The notes beneath the pieces are model-generated. The model saw nothing but the letters and a program-made list of their open reading frames with translations, searched no databases and was not told the DNA's origin. This document shows, piece by piece, positions 1,550-43,824 of a stretch of 59,531 nucleotides of DNA. The translations under genes were made by a program, and so were the position numbers. How positions within the stretch are numbered: the stretch's first letter is position 1; each line of letters opens with the position of its first letter. The DNA comes from a virus. Where the stretch lies: positions 1 to 59,531 of the IMG/VR virus record IMGVR_UViG_3300021959_000043; one strand, given 5' to 3'.

Positions 1550-1569
1550 TGTTTTTGTTTTTATAATTA

Positions 1570-1601
1570 TATTATCTATAAACTAATTTGTTTTATCCGT
1601 G
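1570..1601 (-). promoter_or_regulatory. Leftward promoter, copy 2
   Basis: The minus strand reads CACGGATAA, then 16 bases after CACGGA, then ATAGATAATA. Block sequence and spacing match the other copies. The first downstream ATG (1549) is about 20 bases past the GATAAT box. It serves the operon at 459-1549. Confidence 0.65.
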
Positions 1602-1611
1602 TAGCTATTTT

Positions 1612-1838
1612 GTAACTAGTGAGGAATCGAACCTCAATACCCGTCAGTAAGTCTTATCTCCGTACTTAAACGTGTGATTTTTCCAGACCTAGTTATTCAG
1701 CCTTCCTTCCTCTTTGTAGCGTCATATATCTTGCTACCAGTGCTCGGGTTCAGGCATACTAGCGATTCACTTATGTGTAATTCCAGAGGCAGGAATTTAC
1801 TGACCTTGATTTACCTAATTAAGCTACTCGTCTAGTTA
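1612..1838 (-). ncRNA. Structured RNA with tRNA-like acceptor and T-arm (tmRNA-like or intron-split tRNA candidate)
   Basis: On the minus strand TAACTAG (1838-1832) can pair with CTAGTTA (1619-1613) as a 7-bp acceptor stem. It is preceded on the 3' side by a canonical T-arm, TGAGG-TTCGATT-CCTCA (1636-1620). Inside, GTCAGTAA (1804-1797) pairs perfectly with TTACTGAC (1650-1643). The middle also holds hairpins AATTCC/GGAATT (1797-1779) and GTAGC/GCTAC (1737-1716). A D-loop-like stretch, TAGCTTAATTAGGTA, follows the 5' acceptor strand. This topology (acceptor, D-like region, long helix, insert, T-arm) is that of tmRNA. However, I see no ALAA-type tag codons, no G3-U70 pair and no encoded CCA. 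A second TAACTAG at 1695-1689 could pair with the same 3' strand. It lies directly after the 64-aa gene, whose stop codon falls inside the acceptor strand. Confidence 0.5.
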
Positions 1839-2030
1839 TTTTCTCCGCCATGACCTATGAACCACGGCGGAGAGAGACTGACTTACTATTTGTATAGTGT
1901 TGCCTGTCTTGTGATTGATTATTGGTATATAAGAATATGTTTCTGTTGTTGAACAATCTACACACGTTTTATAACCTAAGGCTAACCTGCCTTCAGGTAT
2001 TTTTGTATTTGGTTTACATTTACAGTACAT
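1836..2030 (-). CDS. Small zinc-ribbon-like protein (64 aa)
   Basis: The N-terminus has CKC at residues 3-5 and C-V-D-C at about 23-26, a CxC...CxxC arrangement that could bind one zinc ion. The centre carries NHKTGNTIQIV, which looks like a conserved surface loop. I recognise this as a type of small phage protein but know no function. Promoter copy 3 lies just upstream (leader about 18 bases). Its stop codon forms part of the acceptor strand of the structured RNA at 1612-1838, so the two are probably co-transcribed. Confidence 0.6.
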   Translation of the reverse strand: MYCKCKPNTKIPEGRLALGYKTCVDCSTTETYSYIPIINHKTGNTIQIVSQSLSAVVHRSWRRK

Positions 2031-2054
2031 AATTATATTTTTTTGTTACACATA

Positions 2055-2086
2055 TATTATCTATAGTAATTTTAAATTAGTCAGTG
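2055..2086 (-). promoter_or_regulatory. Leftward promoter, copy 3
   Basis: The minus strand reads CACTGACTA, then 16 bases after CACTGA, then ATAGATAATA. CTGACT-N17-GATAAT is close to a sigma-70 consensus. It serves the 64-aa gene and the structured RNA. Confidence 0.65.
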
Positions 2087-15304: not shown

Positions 15305-16858
15305 ATGTCAGACAAAATAGTAAAAAACCTTAGTTTTGGAAAACAAGCTAAGGAAGAGGTTTTTATTGGTATAGAAAAACTAGCAAAAGCTGTTAGCTCA
15401 ACTTTAGGAGCTGGTGGTAGTTGCGTTTTATTAGAAGACCAGTTTGGAAACCCAATGATAACAAAAGATGGAGTTACAGTCGCTGAAAGCGTAGTGTTAA
15501 GAAACCCAGTAGAAAACTTAGGTTGCAACTTATTAAAGCAAGCTGCAAAAAAAACTGTAAAAGAAGCGGGAGACGGCACTACCACAGCCACTGTTTTAGC
15601 CTACGCAATACTGCAAGAGGCTTATAAAGTACAAGAAAAAACAAACAATAGAGAGTTAAAAGAAGGTATAAACAAAGCTGTTGATGAGGTTATAGAGTAT
15701 TTATGTAAAATATCAAAACCCATAAAGAATAACATGGTTAATCAAATAGCTACTATATCTACTAATAATGATAAAAAACTAGGTAACTTAATAGGTGAAG
15801 CTTTTAAATCTGTAAATAATACAGGTGTAGTAATGATGGAGCAGTCAGACTCTGATAAAACAGAGTTAGAAACAATAGAAGGCTCTCAGTATTTTAAAGG
15901 ATTATTAAGCCCTCACTTTGTTACTAATAAAATTAAAAAAACAGCAGAACTAAACAACCCTTTAGTTTTGTTGATAGAAAATAACGTTGAAAACATAAGA
16001 CAAATACAAAGTGTCTTAGAATATGTTATAAAAAATAATAAACCATTATTAATTATAGCTGACTTAAGCCCCGAGGTTTTATCTGCTTTAGCAATGAATA
16101 AAACTAAAGGTAACATAAAAGTAAACGTTATATCAGCACCAGTTTTAGGTGTAAACAGAAAACAAATGTTTGATGATCTAGCGCTTCTAACTGGCGCTAC
16201 TTTAATAAACGAGGATTTAGGTGACGATATGGATTTAATTGAAATAGAACACTTAGGAGCATGTTTTAAATCAATAACTAGCGATCAAGATACTATACTT
16301 CAGTTTGAATCTCAGAATAACGAGTGCTTTGAAATAATTAAAGACATAAAGAAAAAGCTTTTAACATGTAAGATACCTGATCAAATAATAAGTTTAGAAA
16401 AAAGATTAGCAATGTTATCTTCAAAGATAGCTGTAGTAAAAGTAGGTGCTAATTCTGAAATAGAACTTAAAGAGAAGATGGATAGGGTTGAAGATGCTAT
16501 TTGTGCTACAAAAGCCGCTGTTAAAGAAGGTATTGTTCCTGGAGGTGGTATAGCTTTGTTAAATGCTTCTAACCATATAAATGCAGAAACTATTGCAGGT
16601 AAGGTTTTAGCTAAAGCTATTAAAGCTCCTTACGAAACAATACTAACAAACGCTGGACTAAAAATAAATTATCCAAAAAATGATTGTTTTGGTTTAGATG
16701 TGGTTACAGGAAATATGGTAAATATGACTAATCAAGGAATAATTGATCCCTTATTAGTTACTAAAAGCGCTTTAAAAAATGCGGCTTCTGTGGCAACAAC
16801 TATTTTATCTACAAATTGTGTAATCAATAATTTAAGAATAGATGAAAGCAATAGGTAG
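15305..16858 (+). CDS. groEL: Phage-encoded chaperonin GroEL (517 aa)
   Basis: ATP-driven protein-folding chamber, acting in the cytoplasm with GroES. Visible hallmarks are ITKDGVTVA with the ATPase Asp near residue 54, the nucleotide-binding GDGTTTATVLA at about 88-98, and VEDAICATKAAVKEGIVPGG with the second catalytic Asp near 397. The equatorial C-terminal block is DPLLVTKSALKNAASVA. The apical domain lies at about 185-370. Differences from bacterial GroEL are as follows. The usual T-L-G-P-K-G-R-N-V reads TLGAGGSCV. The flexible GGM tail is absent, giving 517 rather than about 545 residues. It overlaps groES by 17 bases and sits among late structural genes, so it probably folds capsid or fibre proteins. 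The leader consists of AATTTAATTC-like repeats. Confidence 0.93.
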   Translation: MSDKIVKNLSFGKQAKEEVFIGIEKLAKAVSSTLGAGGSCVLLEDQFGNPMITKDGVTVAESVVLRNPVENLGCNLLKQAAKKTVKEAGDGTTTATVLAYAILQEAYKVQEKTNNRELKEGINKAVDEVIEYLCKISKPIKNNMVNQIATISTNNDKKLGNLIGEAFKSVNNTGVVMMEQSDSDKTELETIEGSQYFKGLLSPHFVTNKIKKTAELNNPLVLLIENNVENIRQIQSVLEYVIKNNKPLLIIADLSPEVLSALAMNKTKGNIKVNVISAPVLGVNRKQMFDDLALLTGATLINEDLGDDMDLIEIEHLGACFKSITSDQDTILQFESQNNECFEIIKDIKKKLLTCKIPDQIISLEKRLAMLSSKIAVVKVGANSEIELKEKMDRVEDAICATKAAVKEGIVPGGGIALLNASNHINAETIAGKVLAKAIKAPYETILTNAGLKINYPKNDCFGLDVVTGNMVNMTNQGIIDPLLVTKSALKNAASVATTILSTNCVINNLRIDESNR

Positions 16859-25554: not shown

Positions 25555-27767
25555 TGTATATTCAAAGTTTATATAAAGTATTAAAAAACCACATTAAACC
25601 AAAAGTTCTTAATAGAATGAATAGGTACAATAAATGGGAGTATGGATATAATGAAGAGCACGATATAATTGTAATAAGCAAAGATGGAACTGTAGGTGAA
25701 GTATATGAAATACAAAATTTAAAAATAGCTTTACCTAAAAAACCAGAAAAACCTCACGGGTTTGTTTCTAATAAATGGGAATACACTGAATATCCTAAAG
25801 AATTAAAAAAGATTAAATCTGTTTTTGATTGGGAAGAGTATTCTATTAATTTTAAAGAAAAATGGTATGATTACATCGATAATGAGTTTAATAAAAGAGA
25901 ACAAGGTTTTTGGTTCAATAATAAAAACGTGGCTACTTACATTACTGGTACTCACTATATGTACTTGCAGTGGAGCAAAATTGACGTTGGGCAGCCAGAC
26001 TTTAGGGAGTCAAACAGATTATTCTACATATTCTGGGAAGCTTGCAAAGCAGATGACAGGTGTTATGGAATGTGTTATCTTAAAAACCGTCGAAGCGGAT
26101 TCTCATTTATGTCCTCAGCTGAGTCAGTTAACCTTGCGACAATATCAACGGATTCACGGTTCGGCATACTGTCCAAATCTGGTCCCGATGCTAAAAAGAT
26201 GTTCACAGATAAGGTTGTACCAATTTCCGTTAACTATCCCTTCTTCTTCAAACCAATCCAGGACGGTATGGACAGACCAAAAACCGAGCTCGCGTACAGA
26301 GTACCCGCGTCAAAATTCACAAGAAGAAAACTTGAATCCAATGAAGCCATTGCAGAAATCACAGGGCTTGACACCACCATCGACTGGAAAAATACAGGTG
26401 ACAATTCCTATGATGGAGAAAAACTTAAACTTCTAGTACACGATGAATCAGGTAAATGGGAAAAGCCAAATAATATACTCAACAACTGGAGAGTTACAAA
26501 AACAACATTAAGATTAGGTGGTACAATAATAGGTAAGTGTATGATGGGTTCTACCTCTAACGCTTTAGATAAGGGTGGTAGTAATTTTAAAAAATTATAT
26601 TATGATTCAAATGTTGAGGAAAGAAACGCCAATGGAGAGACTCGCTCAGGATTATATTCTCTGTTCATACCTATGGAATGGAACTACGAAGGATACATTG
26701 ATTCTTATGGCTTACCTGTCTTCGAAGATCCAAAAAAAGATAGATTTAGTCCGCAAGGAAAAAGAATAAGAATAGGTGTAATAGAATATTGGCAAAACGA
26801 AGTAGATGGATTAAAAAAAGACCAAGATGGTTTAAATGAATTCTACAGACAATTCCCAAGAACAGAGCAACACGCTTTTAGAGATGAAGCAAAACAATCT
26901 TTGTTTAATTTGACAAAGATATATGAGCAAATAGATTATAATCAAGATGTAAGAAACGAATCATTAGTTACAAAAGGTTCTTTTCAATGGCAAAACGGAA
27001 TACAAGACAGTAGTGTTTTATTTGTACCTAACAAAAACGGTAGGTTTTTAGTAACATGGGTTCCACCTATAGAGCTACAAAATAGAGTTATTTTAAAAAA
27101 TGGTTTAAAATACCCTGGTAATGAACATTGTGGAGCTTTTGGATGTGATCCATATGATATATCTGGTACAGTTGACTCAAGAGGTTCTAACGGTTCACTG
27201 CACGGTTTAACTAAATTTTCAATGGAAAAAGTACCTAATAGTTTATTTTTCTTAGAATACATAGCTAGACCACAAACTGCTGAAATATTTTTTGAAGATG
27301 TGCTTATGGCTTGTGTTTTTTATGGTATGCCAATATTAGCTGAAAACAATAAACCTAGATTATTATATCATTTCAAAAGAAGAGGTTACAGAGGTTATAG
27401 TATGAATAGACCAGATAAGGTTTATATGAAGCTATCTATAACAGAAAGAGAAATAGGTGGTATACCTAACTCTAGTCAAGATATAAAGCAAGCTCATGCT
27501 GCTGCTATAGAGTCTTATATAGAAAACTATGTAGGTAATTTAGATGGTAGATATGGAGATATTTATTTTCAAAGAACATTAGAAGACTGGTCAAGGTTTG
27601 ATATAAATAATAGAACAAAGCACGATGCTTCTATTAGTTCTGGTTTAGCTTTAATGGCGTGCAATAAAAATTTATATACTCCAGTTTTTAAAAGACAATT
27701 AGAGCAAAAACCTTTAGGTTTTAAAAAGTATGATAACAAAGGATTTAGTTCAAAAATAATAAGATAA
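25554..27767 (+). CDS. terL: Terminase large subunit (737 aa)
   Basis: The DNA-packaging motor and headful nuclease. ATPase motifs: a Walker A-like loop KNRRSGFSFMSS near residues 176-187, Walker B LLVHDES near 292-298, and coupling motif CMMGSTSN near 329-336. The nuclease domain begins around 470, with a metal-binding Asp in GCDPYDISG near 530 and acidic residues further on (EIFFEDVL). Length fits flavophage/crAss-like TerL. The segment from about 26041 to 26405 has a clearly higher GC content and different codon choice from the rest of the gene. It is followed directly by the portal gene (no gap). Confidence 0.92.
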   Translation: MYIQSLYKVLKNHIKPKVLNRMNRYNKWEYGYNEEHDIIVISKDGTVGEVYEIQNLKIALPKKPEKPHGFVSNKWEYTEYPKELKKIKSVFDWEEYSINFKEKWYDYIDNEFNKREQGFWFNNKNVATYITGTHYMYLQWSKIDVGQPDFRESNRLFYIFWEACKADDRCYGMCYLKNRRSGFSFMSSAESVNLATISTDSRFGILSKSGPDAKKMFTDKVVPISVNYPFFFKPIQDGMDRPKTELAYRVPASKFTRRKLESNEAIAEITGLDTTIDWKNTGDNSYDGEKLKLLVHDESGKWEKPNNILNNWRVTKTTLRLGGTIIGKCMMGSTSNALDKGGSNFKKLYYDSNVEERNANGETRSGLYSLFIPMEWNYEGYIDSYGLPVFEDPKKDRFSPQGKRIRIGVIEYWQNEVDGLKKDQDGLNEFYRQFPRTEQHAFRDEAKQSLFNLTKIYEQIDYNQDVRNESLVTKGSFQWQNGIQDSSVLFVPNKNGRFLVTWVPPIELQNRVILKNGLKYPGNEHCGAFGCDPYDISGTVDSRGSNGSLHGLTKFSMEKVPNSLFFLEYIARPQTAEIFFEDVLMACVFYGMPILAENNKPRLLYHFKRRGYRGYSMNRPDKVYMKLSITEREIGGIPNSSQDIKQAHAAAIESYIENYVGNLDGRYGDIYFQRTLEDWSRFDINNRTKHDASISSGLALMACNKNLYTPVFKRQLEQKPLGFKKYDNKGFSSKIIR
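26041..26405 (+). other. Compositionally distinct patch inside terL
   Basis: Hand counts give 26/60 and 27/60 G+C on the lines starting 26221 and 26281, versus 19/60 at 27541. Codons such as GTC, TCC, CGA and CTC, rare elsewhere in the window, cluster here. Similar patches occur in nrdA, nrdB and the scaffold gene. It spans the Walker A region. It could be a recombination tract or recoded site. Confidence 0.55.
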
Positions 27768-30182
27768 ATGATTTATAGCAATTACGTAGGTTCGTTTCCT
27801 AGTCAGGTAGTATCTGATGAAGAAAAGCAAGGTTATGATTATGGTTACGCCGTAGGACGAGCTATTGAAGGAGAGTGGTTTTCTGGAGATAGAGGTGGAC
27901 TAGGTAATAGGTATCAAAACAGTTGGTTAAATTTTCATAGACTAAGATTATATGCTAGAGGTGAACAACCTGTTCAAAAATATAAAGATGAATTGTCTAT
28001 AAATGGTGATTTGTCTTATTTAAATTTAGACTGGAAGCCAGTGCCTATAATACCTAAATTTGTTGATATTATAGTTAATGGTATGTCTCAAAAAATATTT
28101 GACATAAAAGCTTTTGCTCAAGATCCAGAGTCGTTAAAGAAAAGAACAAAATATGCAGACTCTATAATGAGAGATATGTACGCTAAAGAAATAATACAAG
28201 CTACTAACCAAGCAACAGGCATGGATTTCTTTAACAGCAACGACCCTAATAACATACCTGAAACTCAACAAGAACTAGATCTTCACATGCAGTTAAGTTA
28301 CAAGCAGTCAATTGAAATAGCAGAAGAAGAAGCTATTGAGAATGTTTTAGCTTTTAATAAATATGATTTAATAAAGAAAAGATTAATTCAAGATTTAACA
28401 ATAATAGGTATAAGTGCTGTTAAAACAGATTTTAATTTAGCTAATGGCGTTACAATAAATTATGTTGACCCAGCTAATTTAGTTTATTCTTATACAGAAG
28501 ACCCTAATTTTGATGACATATATTATGCAGGTGAAGTTAAGTCTATAAGTTTAGTTGAATTAAAAAAGCAATTTCCTAGCTTATCAGACGAAGAGTTGAA
28601 AAAAATAGAAAAATTTCCTGGTGATGCTAATTACACTAGAAACTTTTATGCTCAACAAGATTCTCAAAATCAAGTTCAAGTATTGTATTTTGAATATAAA
28701 ACATATTCAAATCAAATATTTAAAATAAAACAAACAGAGCAAGGATTAGAAAAAGCTTTAGAAAAACCAGACACGTTTAATCCTCAACCAAATGATAATT
28801 TTGAAAGAGTAGGTAGAGCTATAGAAGTTTTATATACTGGTGCTAAAATACTAGGCCACGAAATGATGTTAGAGTGGAAAATGTCAGAAAATATGACTAG
28901 ACCTAATTCTAATTTAACTAAAGTTAATATGAATTATTCTATATGTGCACCACGCATGTATAAAGGTATGATAGAATCAACAGTTAGCAGAGTAACTGGT
29001 TTTGCTGATATGATTCAATTAACTCATTTAAAGTTACAACAAGTGTTGTCTAGAATGGTACCAGATGGTGTTTTTGTAGACGTAGATGGATTAGCTGAAG
29101 TTGATTTAGGTAATGGAACAAACTATAATGCTCAAGAAGCACTTAACATGTATTTCCAAACAGGTTCTATAGTTGGTAGGTCAATGACGCAAGATGGTGA
29201 TTTAAATAGAGGTAAAGTGCCTATTCAAGAACTACAAACAGGTAGTGGAGGTGCTAAAATACAAAGCTTAATACAAACGTATCAATACTATTTACAAATG
29301 ATACGTGATGTAACAGGGCTTAATGAAGCAACAGACGCTAGTACTCCTGATGCTCACGCTTTAGTTGGTTTACAGAAAATGGCAGCAGCAAATTCTAATA
29401 CAGCACTTAGACACGTAATGCAAGGTGGTTTATACTTAACACTAAGAACGTGTGAGAATATATCACTAAGAATAGCTGATGCTTTAGGTTATCCTTTAAC
29501 TAGAGCCGCGTTGATAGACTCTATATCATCTTATAATACAGGTACTTTAGAAGAGTTGCAAGAAAAAAATCTTCAAGATTTTGGTATATTTTTAGAACTA
29601 GAACCAGACGAAGAAATAAAAGCTCAACTAGAACAAAATATACAAATAGCTCTTCAAAGCGGAGGTATAGACTTAGATGATGCAATAGATATCAGGCAAG
29701 TTAAAAACATGAAACTTGCTAATGCTTTGTTAAAGCAAAAAAGAAAACAAAAAGCAAAACAAGACCAAGCTAACCAACAAGCTAATATTCAAGCACAGGC
29801 ACAAGCTAATTCTCAAGCTTCACAAGAAGCAATTGAAGCAGAAATGCACAAGCAGCAGGCTCTTGCTGAGACTACAATTCAAATAGAAACATCTAAAATG
29901 CAGCTTGAAATAAAAAAGATGCTACAAGAAGCCGAGATAAAAAAAGGTTTAATGGCGGAAGAGTTTCAATACAATATACAATTAGCTGAAATAAAATCTA
30001 AAGCTGAGACTCAAAAAGAGTCTGAAATAGAAAATAGAAAAGATAATAGAGTACAAATGCAAGGTACTCAAGAGTCTAAATTAATAAACCAAAGACAAAA
30101 CAACACATTACCACAAGAGTTTGAATCCGCTGGATTTGATAACTTAGGTGGTTTTGGATTAGAGCAATTTGATCCTAGATAA
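27768..30182 (+). CDS. Portal protein (804 aa)
   Basis: Follows terL and precedes scaffold and capsid genes, the standard place. The N-terminal 60 residues (YNYAVG-like GYDYGYAVGRAIEGEW) lead into a helical/beta core. Residues about 380-470 hold NYSICAPRMYKGMIESTVSR and the long stem/crown helices. Residues about 640-780 are a Gln/Lys/Glu-rich helical barrel-like extension. Size (804 aa) matches crAss-like portals closely. It forms the dodecameric DNA channel at one capsid vertex. No enzymatic motif expected. Confidence 0.85.
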   Translation: MIYSNYVGSFPSQVVSDEEKQGYDYGYAVGRAIEGEWFSGDRGGLGNRYQNSWLNFHRLRLYARGEQPVQKYKDELSINGDLSYLNLDWKPVPIIPKFVDIIVNGMSQKIFDIKAFAQDPESLKKRTKYADSIMRDMYAKEIIQATNQATGMDFFNSNDPNNIPETQQELDLHMQLSYKQSIEIAEEEAIENVLAFNKYDLIKKRLIQDLTIIGISAVKTDFNLANGVTINYVDPANLVYSYTEDPNFDDIYYAGEVKSISLVELKKQFPSLSDEELKKIEKFPGDANYTRNFYAQQDSQNQVQVLYFEYKTYSNQIFKIKQTEQGLEKALEKPDTFNPQPNDNFERVGRAIEVLYTGAKILGHEMMLEWKMSENMTRPNSNLTKVNMNYSICAPRMYKGMIESTVSRVTGFADMIQLTHLKLQQVLSRMVPDGVFVDVDGLAEVDLGNGTNYNAQEALNMYFQTGSIVGRSMTQDGDLNRGKVPIQELQTGSGGAKIQSLIQTYQYYLQMIRDVTGLNEATDASTPDAHALVGLQKMAAANSNTALRHVMQGGLYLTLRTCENISLRIADALGYPLTRAALIDSISSYNTGTLEELQEKNLQDFGIFLELEPDEEIKAQLEQNIQIALQSGGIDLDDAIDIRQVKNMKLANALLKQKRKQKAKQDQANQQANIQAQAQANSQASQEAIEAEMHKQQALAETTIQIETSKMQLEIKKMLQEAEIKKGLMAEEFQYNIQLAEIKSKAETQKESEIENRKDNRVQMQGTQESKLINQRQNNTLPQEFESAGFDNLGGFGLEQFDPR

Positions 30183-42706: not shown

Positions 42707-43111
42707 ATGATAGAAATTAAAAATATAGACATAAGCTTATATTTTGAAAAAATAAACGATTGGTTTAAATATTACAATAAAGTAGATTTAAATATAAAAC
42801 TATTACCTAAAGGAGAAGAATACTGCTTAGGTGCTTTTGTTAATAATAAAATTGTAGCATGTACCTTTATATATACAACAAACTCATGTGTTTGGTATTG
42901 TGATTTTTTAATAGCAGATTATAAATATAGGAATAGTAATAGAAATAAAGTTTTATTAAAACTAATAAATGAAGCCGTAGAGTCTTCATTAAAAAAAGGA
43001 GCAGAGGCTGTATGGTGTACAACACCTTATGAATCTGTTCTAGAAAAATTAAAAAAATTAAAATATAGTGTATCTAATAAAAAACACTATATAATATGTA
43101 AAAACAAATAA
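42707..43111 (+). CDS. GNAT-like acetyltransferase (134 aa)
   Basis: The pattern fits a small GNAT fold: strand LGAFVNNKIVACTFIYTT, then WYCDFLIADYKYRNSNRNKV leading into a long helix (LLKLINEAVESSLKKGAEAV), strand WCTTPYES and a final HYIICKNK strand. The acetyl-CoA loop R-N-S-N-R-N-K is a weak version of Q-x-x-G-x-G/A. GNAT enzymes acetylate proteins or small molecules. One inside a tail gene block is unusual and may modify virion or host proteins. Activity uncertain. Confidence 0.5.
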   Translation: MIEIKNIDISLYFEKINDWFKYYNKVDLNIKLLPKGEEYCLGAFVNNKIVACTFIYTTNSCVWYCDFLIADYKYRNSNRNKVLLKLINEAVESSLKKGAEAVWCTTPYESVLEKLKKLKYSVSNKKHYIICKNK

Positions 43112-43113
43112 GT

Positions 43114-43824
43114 ATGGGAGCAGTTAGTGGAATAACCAGCATAGTTAGCGGTGTTGGTGGTATGGTCCAGGCTAATCAAGCACAAAAGCAAGCTAAAGGA
43201 GCTATGAATAATGCTAGAAACGAAAAGAAAAGATTACAAGCAGAGCTAGAGTCTTTAGAAAATAGTAGACAACCTATCATAAATCCATATGCTAATGTTA
43301 AAGACACTACAGGTAACTTAAGTAATACCTACGCTAACCTAGGTGTTGCTACTCAAGCTGCTGAATTTCAAGCCGAGCAAGCTGAAATATCTTTATCAAA
43401 CACTTTAGATACGTTAAGAGCTACAGGCGCTTCTGCAGGTGGCGCAACAGCTTTAGCTCAAGCAGCTTTAGCTAGTAAAAAACAAATATCAGCTAGTTTA
43501 GAAATGCAAGAAGGTGCTAATCAAAAGCTTTTTGCTAAAGGAGAAGAACAATTGCAGAGGTTAAAAATGGCAGAGGATCAAAGGCTTCAAAATGCCGACG
43601 TAATGGGTAAACAATTTATGTTTGGTCAACAGGACAAAAGAGAAATGCAAAGACTAAACAGAAAAGCTGGTCAGTTAGATAACGCCACAGCTGATCTAAG
43701 ACAAGCAGAAGCGACATATGCTTCAGCAGAAGCAAATAAACAAGGAGCTTTATTTAGCGGTATTACTGATGTATTGTCAGGAGGTGGAGATTTATATGTT
43801 AATAGAGATAACCTTTTCGGCTAA
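43114..43824 (+). CDS. Internal virion protein, T7 gp14-like (236 aa)
   Basis: A Gly/Ala-rich hydrophobic N-terminus (AVSGITSIVSGVGGMVQANQ) is followed by a long Ala/Gln/Glu helix to about residue 215. This is the composition of short-tailed-phage ejection proteins that exit with the DNA and form a channel across the envelope. It sits directly before two other probable internal proteins. Confidence 0.6.
   Translation: MGAVSGITSIVSGVGGMVQANQAQKQAKGAMNNARNEKKRLQAELESLENSRQPIINPYANVKDTTGNLSNTYANLGVATQAAEFQAEQAEISLSNTLDTLRATGASAGGATALAQAALASKKQISASLEMQEGANQKLFAKGEEQLQRLKMAEDQRLQNADVMGKQFMFGQQDKREMQRLNRKAGQLDNATADLRQAEATYASAEANKQGALFSGITDVLSGGGDLYVNRDNLFG

Follow-up and report, generated by a model that had tools for sequence, protein, structure and literature searches.

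An anticodon-less tRNA-like RNA of a marine flavobacterial phage, conserved in its relatives by compensatory change

The tRNA-like domain (TLD) of tmRNA has no anticodon stem-loop, and SmpB occupies that space (PMC4131195). Some tmRNAs consist of this domain only, as in Mallomonadaceae plastids and in mycobacteriophage DS6A, the one phage case cited earlier. A molecule of the DS6A kind, whether chargeable or not, has been reported to strongly inhibit tmRNA, perhaps by titrating SmpB (PMC4131195; restated in PMC11915505). Here we describe TLS-1, an RNA element encoded in a viral record of 59,531 bases from IMG/VR, the whole of which was analysed (the window). The terminase, portal and capsid proteins of the window match PHROG head-and-packaging families, and its capsid protein shares 42-50% identity with the capsid proteins of Flavobacterium elemo phages, a Manatee Spring podovirus and Maribacter phage Panino; Cellulophaga phages come lower in the match list. 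The window phage is a marine phage with a flavobacterial host. It also encodes a GroEL-like chaperonin at 15305-16858 (+).

TLS-1 shares with TLD-only tmRNAs, including the mini-tmRNAs of its relatives described below, its small size, its tRNA-like form, the lack of an anticodon arm and of a tag, its canonical T-arm and its phage origin. As in the DS6A type, a D-loop GG follows about 4 nt after the 7-bp acceptor (4-5 nt in the family, 4 nt in the window), as it does in the tmRNA D-loop (Rfam consensus GGGGguG-AucuGG), and no anticodon stem-loop is present. It differs from them in having a D-like stem around the GG, an arm with a GACG tetraloop and no G3.U70 pair, and the TLS-1 of the window is not matched by the Rfam tmRNA model with its interior deleted. 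The likeness to full-length tmRNA (ssrA, RF00023), as in phages Calle_1 and Panino, lies in a tRNA-like domain without an anticodon stem-loop, but TLS-1 has no mRNA-like domain, pseudoknots, tag or alanine identity pair, whereas tmRNA has neither a D-stem enclosing the GG nor a GACG arm. Where tmRNA carries G3.U70 with A73, the window has A3-U70 and the TLS-1 family A-U or G-C; the original prediction, which had been made from this sequence alone, had likewise seen neither a tag ending in LAA nor G3.U70. With tRNA, TLS-1 shares the cloverleaf, a 7-bp acceptor, a canonical T-arm and a tail like those of the phages' own tRNAs, but it carries a 4-bp arm with a GACG tetraloop in place of the 5-bp, 7-nt anticodon arm, and its GG lies too close to the acceptor. 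Like plant-virus tRNA-like structures and bacterial Y RNAs (YrlA), it joins a mimic of the tRNA elbow to another RNA; unlike these, it has no pseudoknotted acceptor and comes from a DNA phage.

Fold and conservation of TLS-1

Comparison of relatives shows TLS-1 to be a small structured phage RNA that copies the acceptor, T-arm and elbow half of a tRNA without a decoding arm, and the predicted structure, set out in Table 1, is secure. The insert of its D-like arm is a variable hairpin, and acceptor and T-stem together form a stack of 12-13 bp, of which acceptor pair 1 is closed in the window but unpaired in roughly half of the family members. The acceptor sequence changes from lineage to lineage, and an anticodon is absent. 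Within the tail, the C and the A in third place vary hardly or not at all (alignment A1, 41 sequences), and the mini-tmRNA and tRNA-Met genes of relatives end in A-CTAA or A-CCTAA. The T-loop motif GGTTCRANNCC occurs once in the whole 59.5 kb. ARAGORN does not recognise TLS-1 and, together with the Rfam models, finds the window free of tRNAs, tmRNAs and introns (RF00005 up to E 10, RF00023, and group I intron models, the last also without a match in 11 relative loci).

Table 1. Features of the TLS-1 locus and examples of mini-tmRNAs (window positions unless a contig is named)
Feature	Position	Strand	Remarks
TLS-1, tRNA-like cloverleaf, 87 nt	1609..1695	-	model R2, 71.3 bits, E 5e-18; RNA 5' end at 1695
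Acceptor 5' strand TAACTAG (inner copy)	1689..1695	-	pairs with 1613-1619; covaries
D-like arm	1651..1688	-	stem GTCT 1688-1685 / AGAC 1654-1651; GG 1684-1683; variable insert 1682-1655
Small arm at anticodon position, TACT-GACG-GGTA	1638..1649	-	4 bp; invariant GACG tetraloop; no anticodon
T-arm TGAGG-TTCGATT-CCTCA	1620..1636	-	canonical; conserved loop TTCGANT; stem covaries
Acceptor 3' strand CTAGTTA	1613..1619	-	covaries
Unpaired conserved tail C-A-A-A (family: C-W-A-A)	1609..1612	-	
Short structured spacer	1696..1757	-	hairpin GTAGC 1737-1733 / GCTAC 1720-1716
Module B, separate RNA module	1758..1836	-	closed by ACTAG 1836-1832 / CTAGT 1762-1758
64-aa Cys-rich ORF	1836..2030	-	stop TAA 1838-1836 overlaps start of module B
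Promoter-like GATAATAT	2054..2061	-	putative promoter upstream of 64-aa ORF and RNA
Promoter-like GATAATAT	1569..1576	-	just 3' of TLS-1; putative promoter of following gene
Mini-tmRNA examples in relatives (about 47 more)	L121:8369-8448; L107:7291-7371; L063:1113-1192; L005:4406-4486	-; -; -; +	

Two patterns were used to collect relatives from IMG/VR contigs. The first, an exact match to the T-arm and 3' acceptor strand, returned 51 stretches. Nearly all of them carry AACTAG some 50-110 nt further upstream, followed by GTNNGG and a variable hairpin, with YTACYGACGRGTA preceding the T-arm. The second, which fixes the GACG hairpin and T-loop and leaves the acceptor free, returned 49 stretches whose acceptors differ and yet stay complementary (GAACTAA/TTAGTTC, CAGCTTG/CAAGCTG, TAGCACG/CGTGCTA, TAACTTG/CAAGTTA). 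Across the four stems of A1, which was drawn from sequences found by these patterns, 92.3% of cells are paired, against 78.3% after shuffling and at most 47.6% when the structure is slid; double-sided, compensatory change is seen in 14 of the 20 pairs, a score that none of 500 shuffles reached. Pairs 1-3 of the D-stem covary (GC/AU; UA/GC/AU/CG; AU/CG/GC/UA, respectively), and the GACG arm is 100% paired, with UA/AU/GU at pair 1 and CG/UA/UG at pair 4. A separate count over 71 sequences agrees.

Because the patterns behind A1 had fixed parts of the element (in one case the T-arm with the 3' strand of the acceptor, in the other the T-loop with the GACG hairpin), the test was repeated on loci fetched only through similarity to the neighbouring 64-aa protein. 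These gave 31 matches, 24 of them distinct, with 90.4% pairing, double changes in 17 pairs and again 0 of 500 shuffles reaching the score. We treat this second set as supporting rather than primary evidence, since it was aligned by fit to the model and includes nine weaker matches (28-31 bits), some of them tRNA-Met.

At E <= 1e-8 the model R2 recovers TLS-1 in 95 of the 99 pattern loci. In total, about 100 IMG/VR contigs carry it, the relatives among them all being metagenomic, usually with one strong copy per record and essentially one per phage. That TLS-1 could be a decaying tRNA gene or a chance T-arm-like sequence is an idea to which the silence of every tRNA program lends itself, but it is refuted by covariation, all four stems having been kept by compensatory change throughout these contigs, and we regard it as barely credible. 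The family, which is missing from Rfam, has strong compensatory evolution behind it, the phages retaining a tRNA elbow while dropping decoding. A pattern search of 84,980 bacterial and archaeal genomes gave seven matches in scattered taxa, presumed to be chance or tRNA-like; one of these, L154, may lie on a contig of the L060 type, and L060 is no TLS-1. BLASTN against named phages returned just short, chance-like matches to the T-arm or promoter, a search through the 85-aa downstream ORF found no nucleotide-level relatives, and TLS-1 was not found in Elemovirus elemoF or MW202828. In Panino the top R2 match is weak and is one of the phage's own tRNAs. Sister phages do carry annotated tmRNAs, at 27557-27889 in Panino (PP540027.1) and 43002-43361 in Calle_1 (Callevirus, MT732432.1), and the Panino tmRNA sequence may be circularly permuted.

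These comparisons also decide between folds. The original prediction drew a tmRNA, or a tRNA split by an intron, in which an acceptor formed by 1838-1832 and 1619-1613 enclosed a perfect 8-bp helix and a structured insert of 140 bases. The canonical T-arm on which it was built, followed directly by CTAGTTA, is present, as are the two copies of TAACTAG (1838-1832 and 1695-1689, both on the minus strand), and the 3' strand at 1619-1613 does belong to a real 7-bp acceptor. Its partner, as compensatory changes in relatives show, is however the inner copy; the outer one has to be rejected because the partner of CTAGTT across relatives is the copy lying about 50-110 nt upstream, and 1838-1832 covaries with 1762-1758 instead. 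This settles the choice between two folds with a common 3' half that the duplication had raised. Complementarity between GTCAGTAA (1804-1797) and TTACTGAC (1650-1643) does exist in the window sequence itself, but 22% of 227-nt sequences simulated with equal composition contain a perfect 8-bp helix by chance, none of the relatives tested has the reverse complement of the helix strand, and TTACTGAC is really part of the conserved hairpin TACY-GACG-RGTA. The 140-base insert is likewise ruled out by the relatives, while the folding energy of the whole 237-nt region is no better than that of shuffles (z -0.48) and so uninformative. Nothing speaks for a split tRNA, there being no anticodon arm and no group I intron match. 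The structure as drawn, with neither tag ORF nor G3.U70 nor an Rfam tmRNA, tRNA or intron match, is refuted by covariation, and we give it practically no weight; what survives is the suggestion of a new type of phage tRNA mimic, in the form of an anticodon-less cloverleaf kept in relatives, and a link to tmRNA through the genuine TLD-only tmRNAs that lie beside TLS-1 in those relatives.

The RNA island and its mini-tmRNAs

TLS-1 forms the 3' end of the RNA island that follows the 64-aa ORF, and the outer TAACTAG begins on the stop codon of this ORF. The 64-aa protein matches neither Pfam nor PHROG families; it has at least 262 relatives in IMG/VR. In related phages the gene mostly has an RNA island after it. 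Module B, which starts at this stop codon, is made up of the conserved strands GACGAGTAGCTTAATTAG (1832-1815) and CATAAGTGAATCG (1775-1763) with a variable apical hairpin between them, and its closing helix varies in a compensatory manner (GCTAG/CTAGC, GTCAG/CTGAC and GCAGG/CCTGC in relatives): among 74 sequences, the 34 distinct closing helices are 77% paired against 66.9 +/- 1.9% after shuffling, a value reached by 0 of 1000 shuffles. The short structured spacer also occurs in the closest relative (L027/L171). The motif GATAATAT recurs in the window, with six of its eight copies on the minus strand upstream of small genes (324, 1576, 2061, 2651, 3272 and 3660); several copies have a box resembling ACACGGA or ACACTGA about 25-28 nt upstream.

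Many islands of relatives hold an RNA of about 80-110 nt that is matched end to end by the Rfam tmRNA model, with the model's 304-nt interior replaced, in the best cases, by about 11 nt (E 3.7e-25 in L121, 4.3e-24 in L063 and 3.6e-23 in L107; several are weaker). These mini-tmRNAs keep G3.U70 and A73, end in a CTAA tail and have no pseudoknots and no room for a tag. A pattern that itself fixes G3.U70 found 51 of them, and a small model, R3, was built. Among the best 80 of the 64-aa protein homologues, 58 have a mini-tmRNA, 22 a strong TLS-1 and 16 both, and in all 16 TLS-1 comes first and the mini-tmRNA follows on the same strand, with a gap down to 0-2 nt. A separate count gave 29 TLS-1/mini-tmRNA pairs, 25 of them within about 220 nt and with TLS-1 first. 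In many relatives, then, TLS-1 is followed head-to-tail by a mini-tmRNA or tRNA-Met; the window has neither a mini-tmRNA nor a tRNA, and its TLS-1 stands alone. We found no description of mini-tmRNAs or TLS-1 from this phage group in the open-access literature.

A possible descent of TLS-1 from tmRNA was tested by sequence comparison. Scanned with the Rfam tmRNA model, TLS-1 elements give a full-length match in L085 alone (E 2e-8, below gathering; E 4e-8 with R2), and R3, the mini-tmRNA model, reaches the TLS-1 of the window at no better than E 0.4. Specific descent from tmRNA is not proven, because R2 scores the tRNA-Met of relatives as high as or above their mini-tmRNAs.

Possible functions of TLS-1

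TLS-1 may serve the phage to jam the translation machinery of its host or to borrow it. Since TLS-1 has the minimal features of the tmRNA TLD and adjoins mini-tmRNAs, we propose, tentatively and at somewhat less than even likelihood, that it is a tRNA-elbow decoy that damps trans-translation as the partner of the mini-tmRNA. It would be cut from the transcript by tRNA-processing enzymes and, once freed, would fold into an L-shape seen by elbow-binding factors. As it cannot decode and has no alanine identity pair, it would compete instead of serving as an adaptor, its most likely target for titration being SmpB (or else EF-Tu or tRNA-maturation enzymes). The expected outcome would be that trans-translation is damped during infection, alongside the alanylatable mini-tmRNA of most relatives; in the window, where there is no mini-tmRNA, TLS-1 would act alone. 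Processing, SmpB binding and inhibition are all inferred.

The main rival is a role in cis, in which TLS-1 would be a tRNA-shaped processing or stability signal that ends the transcript of the 64-aa ORF and RNA island, with RNase P and RNase Z (or a terminator-like function) setting its ends and shielding it from 3' exonucleases. We judge this the less likely of the two, although several features suit it. TLS-1 is the last element of its transcription unit, with the next promoter-like motif following some 36 nt on, and among relatives it forms tandems with tRNAs and mini-tmRNAs in the manner of a punctuation mark; its C-W-A-A tail is similar to the tails of neighbouring tRNAs; and RNase P reads a stacked length of 12-13 bp and a T-loop, both of which TLS-1 offers. 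Punctuation does not, however, need an invariant GACG stub, a conserved GG or a hypervariable insert, and an adjoining real tRNA or mini-tmRNA could serve instead. A tRNA shape without a decoding function would also be expected if TLS-1 and its sister modules were decoys (or sensors) for tRNA-attacking toxins or host defence nucleases, with hypervariable caps produced by an arms race, and the variable arm does share exchangeable hairpin cassettes with other modules of the island. Most known tRNA-cutting defence enzymes, on the other hand, attack the anticodon loop, which is just what TLS-1 is missing, and no defence partner was identified, so that we think this explanation improbable.

The elbow-decoy reading has a broader version, which is more speculative and in our view rather unlikely: that many marine flavobacterial phages encode a pair of RNAs, an unchargeable cloverleaf (TLS-1) and an alanylatable mini-tmRNA, as exchangeable modules that jointly block or redirect ribosome rescue in the host. 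If true, the paired device would be an RNA-only anti-trans-translation system. The link between TLS-1 and TLD-only tmRNAs makes the control of ribosome rescue by phage RNA mimics directly testable.

Other RNA modules of related islands

Further T-arm RNAs with long modular inserts lie in L044, just 3' of 9019 (+), and in L034, on the reverse strand upstream of its TLS-1; their acceptors are GCCCAAG/CTTGGGC and CGGGTGT/ACACCCG, and both are ARAGORN-negative. The intergenic islands of L006, L020, L044, L105, L111 and L119 are beads-on-a-string arrays of several structured RNA modules that differ from one another, each with a complementary stem of its own to close it. Apical hairpin cassettes such as GTAAACGTTTTCACGAGC and GAAATAGGAGACGAAAGTCACACTAACTT recur in different module scaffolds, an exchange between RNA modules that is unusual.
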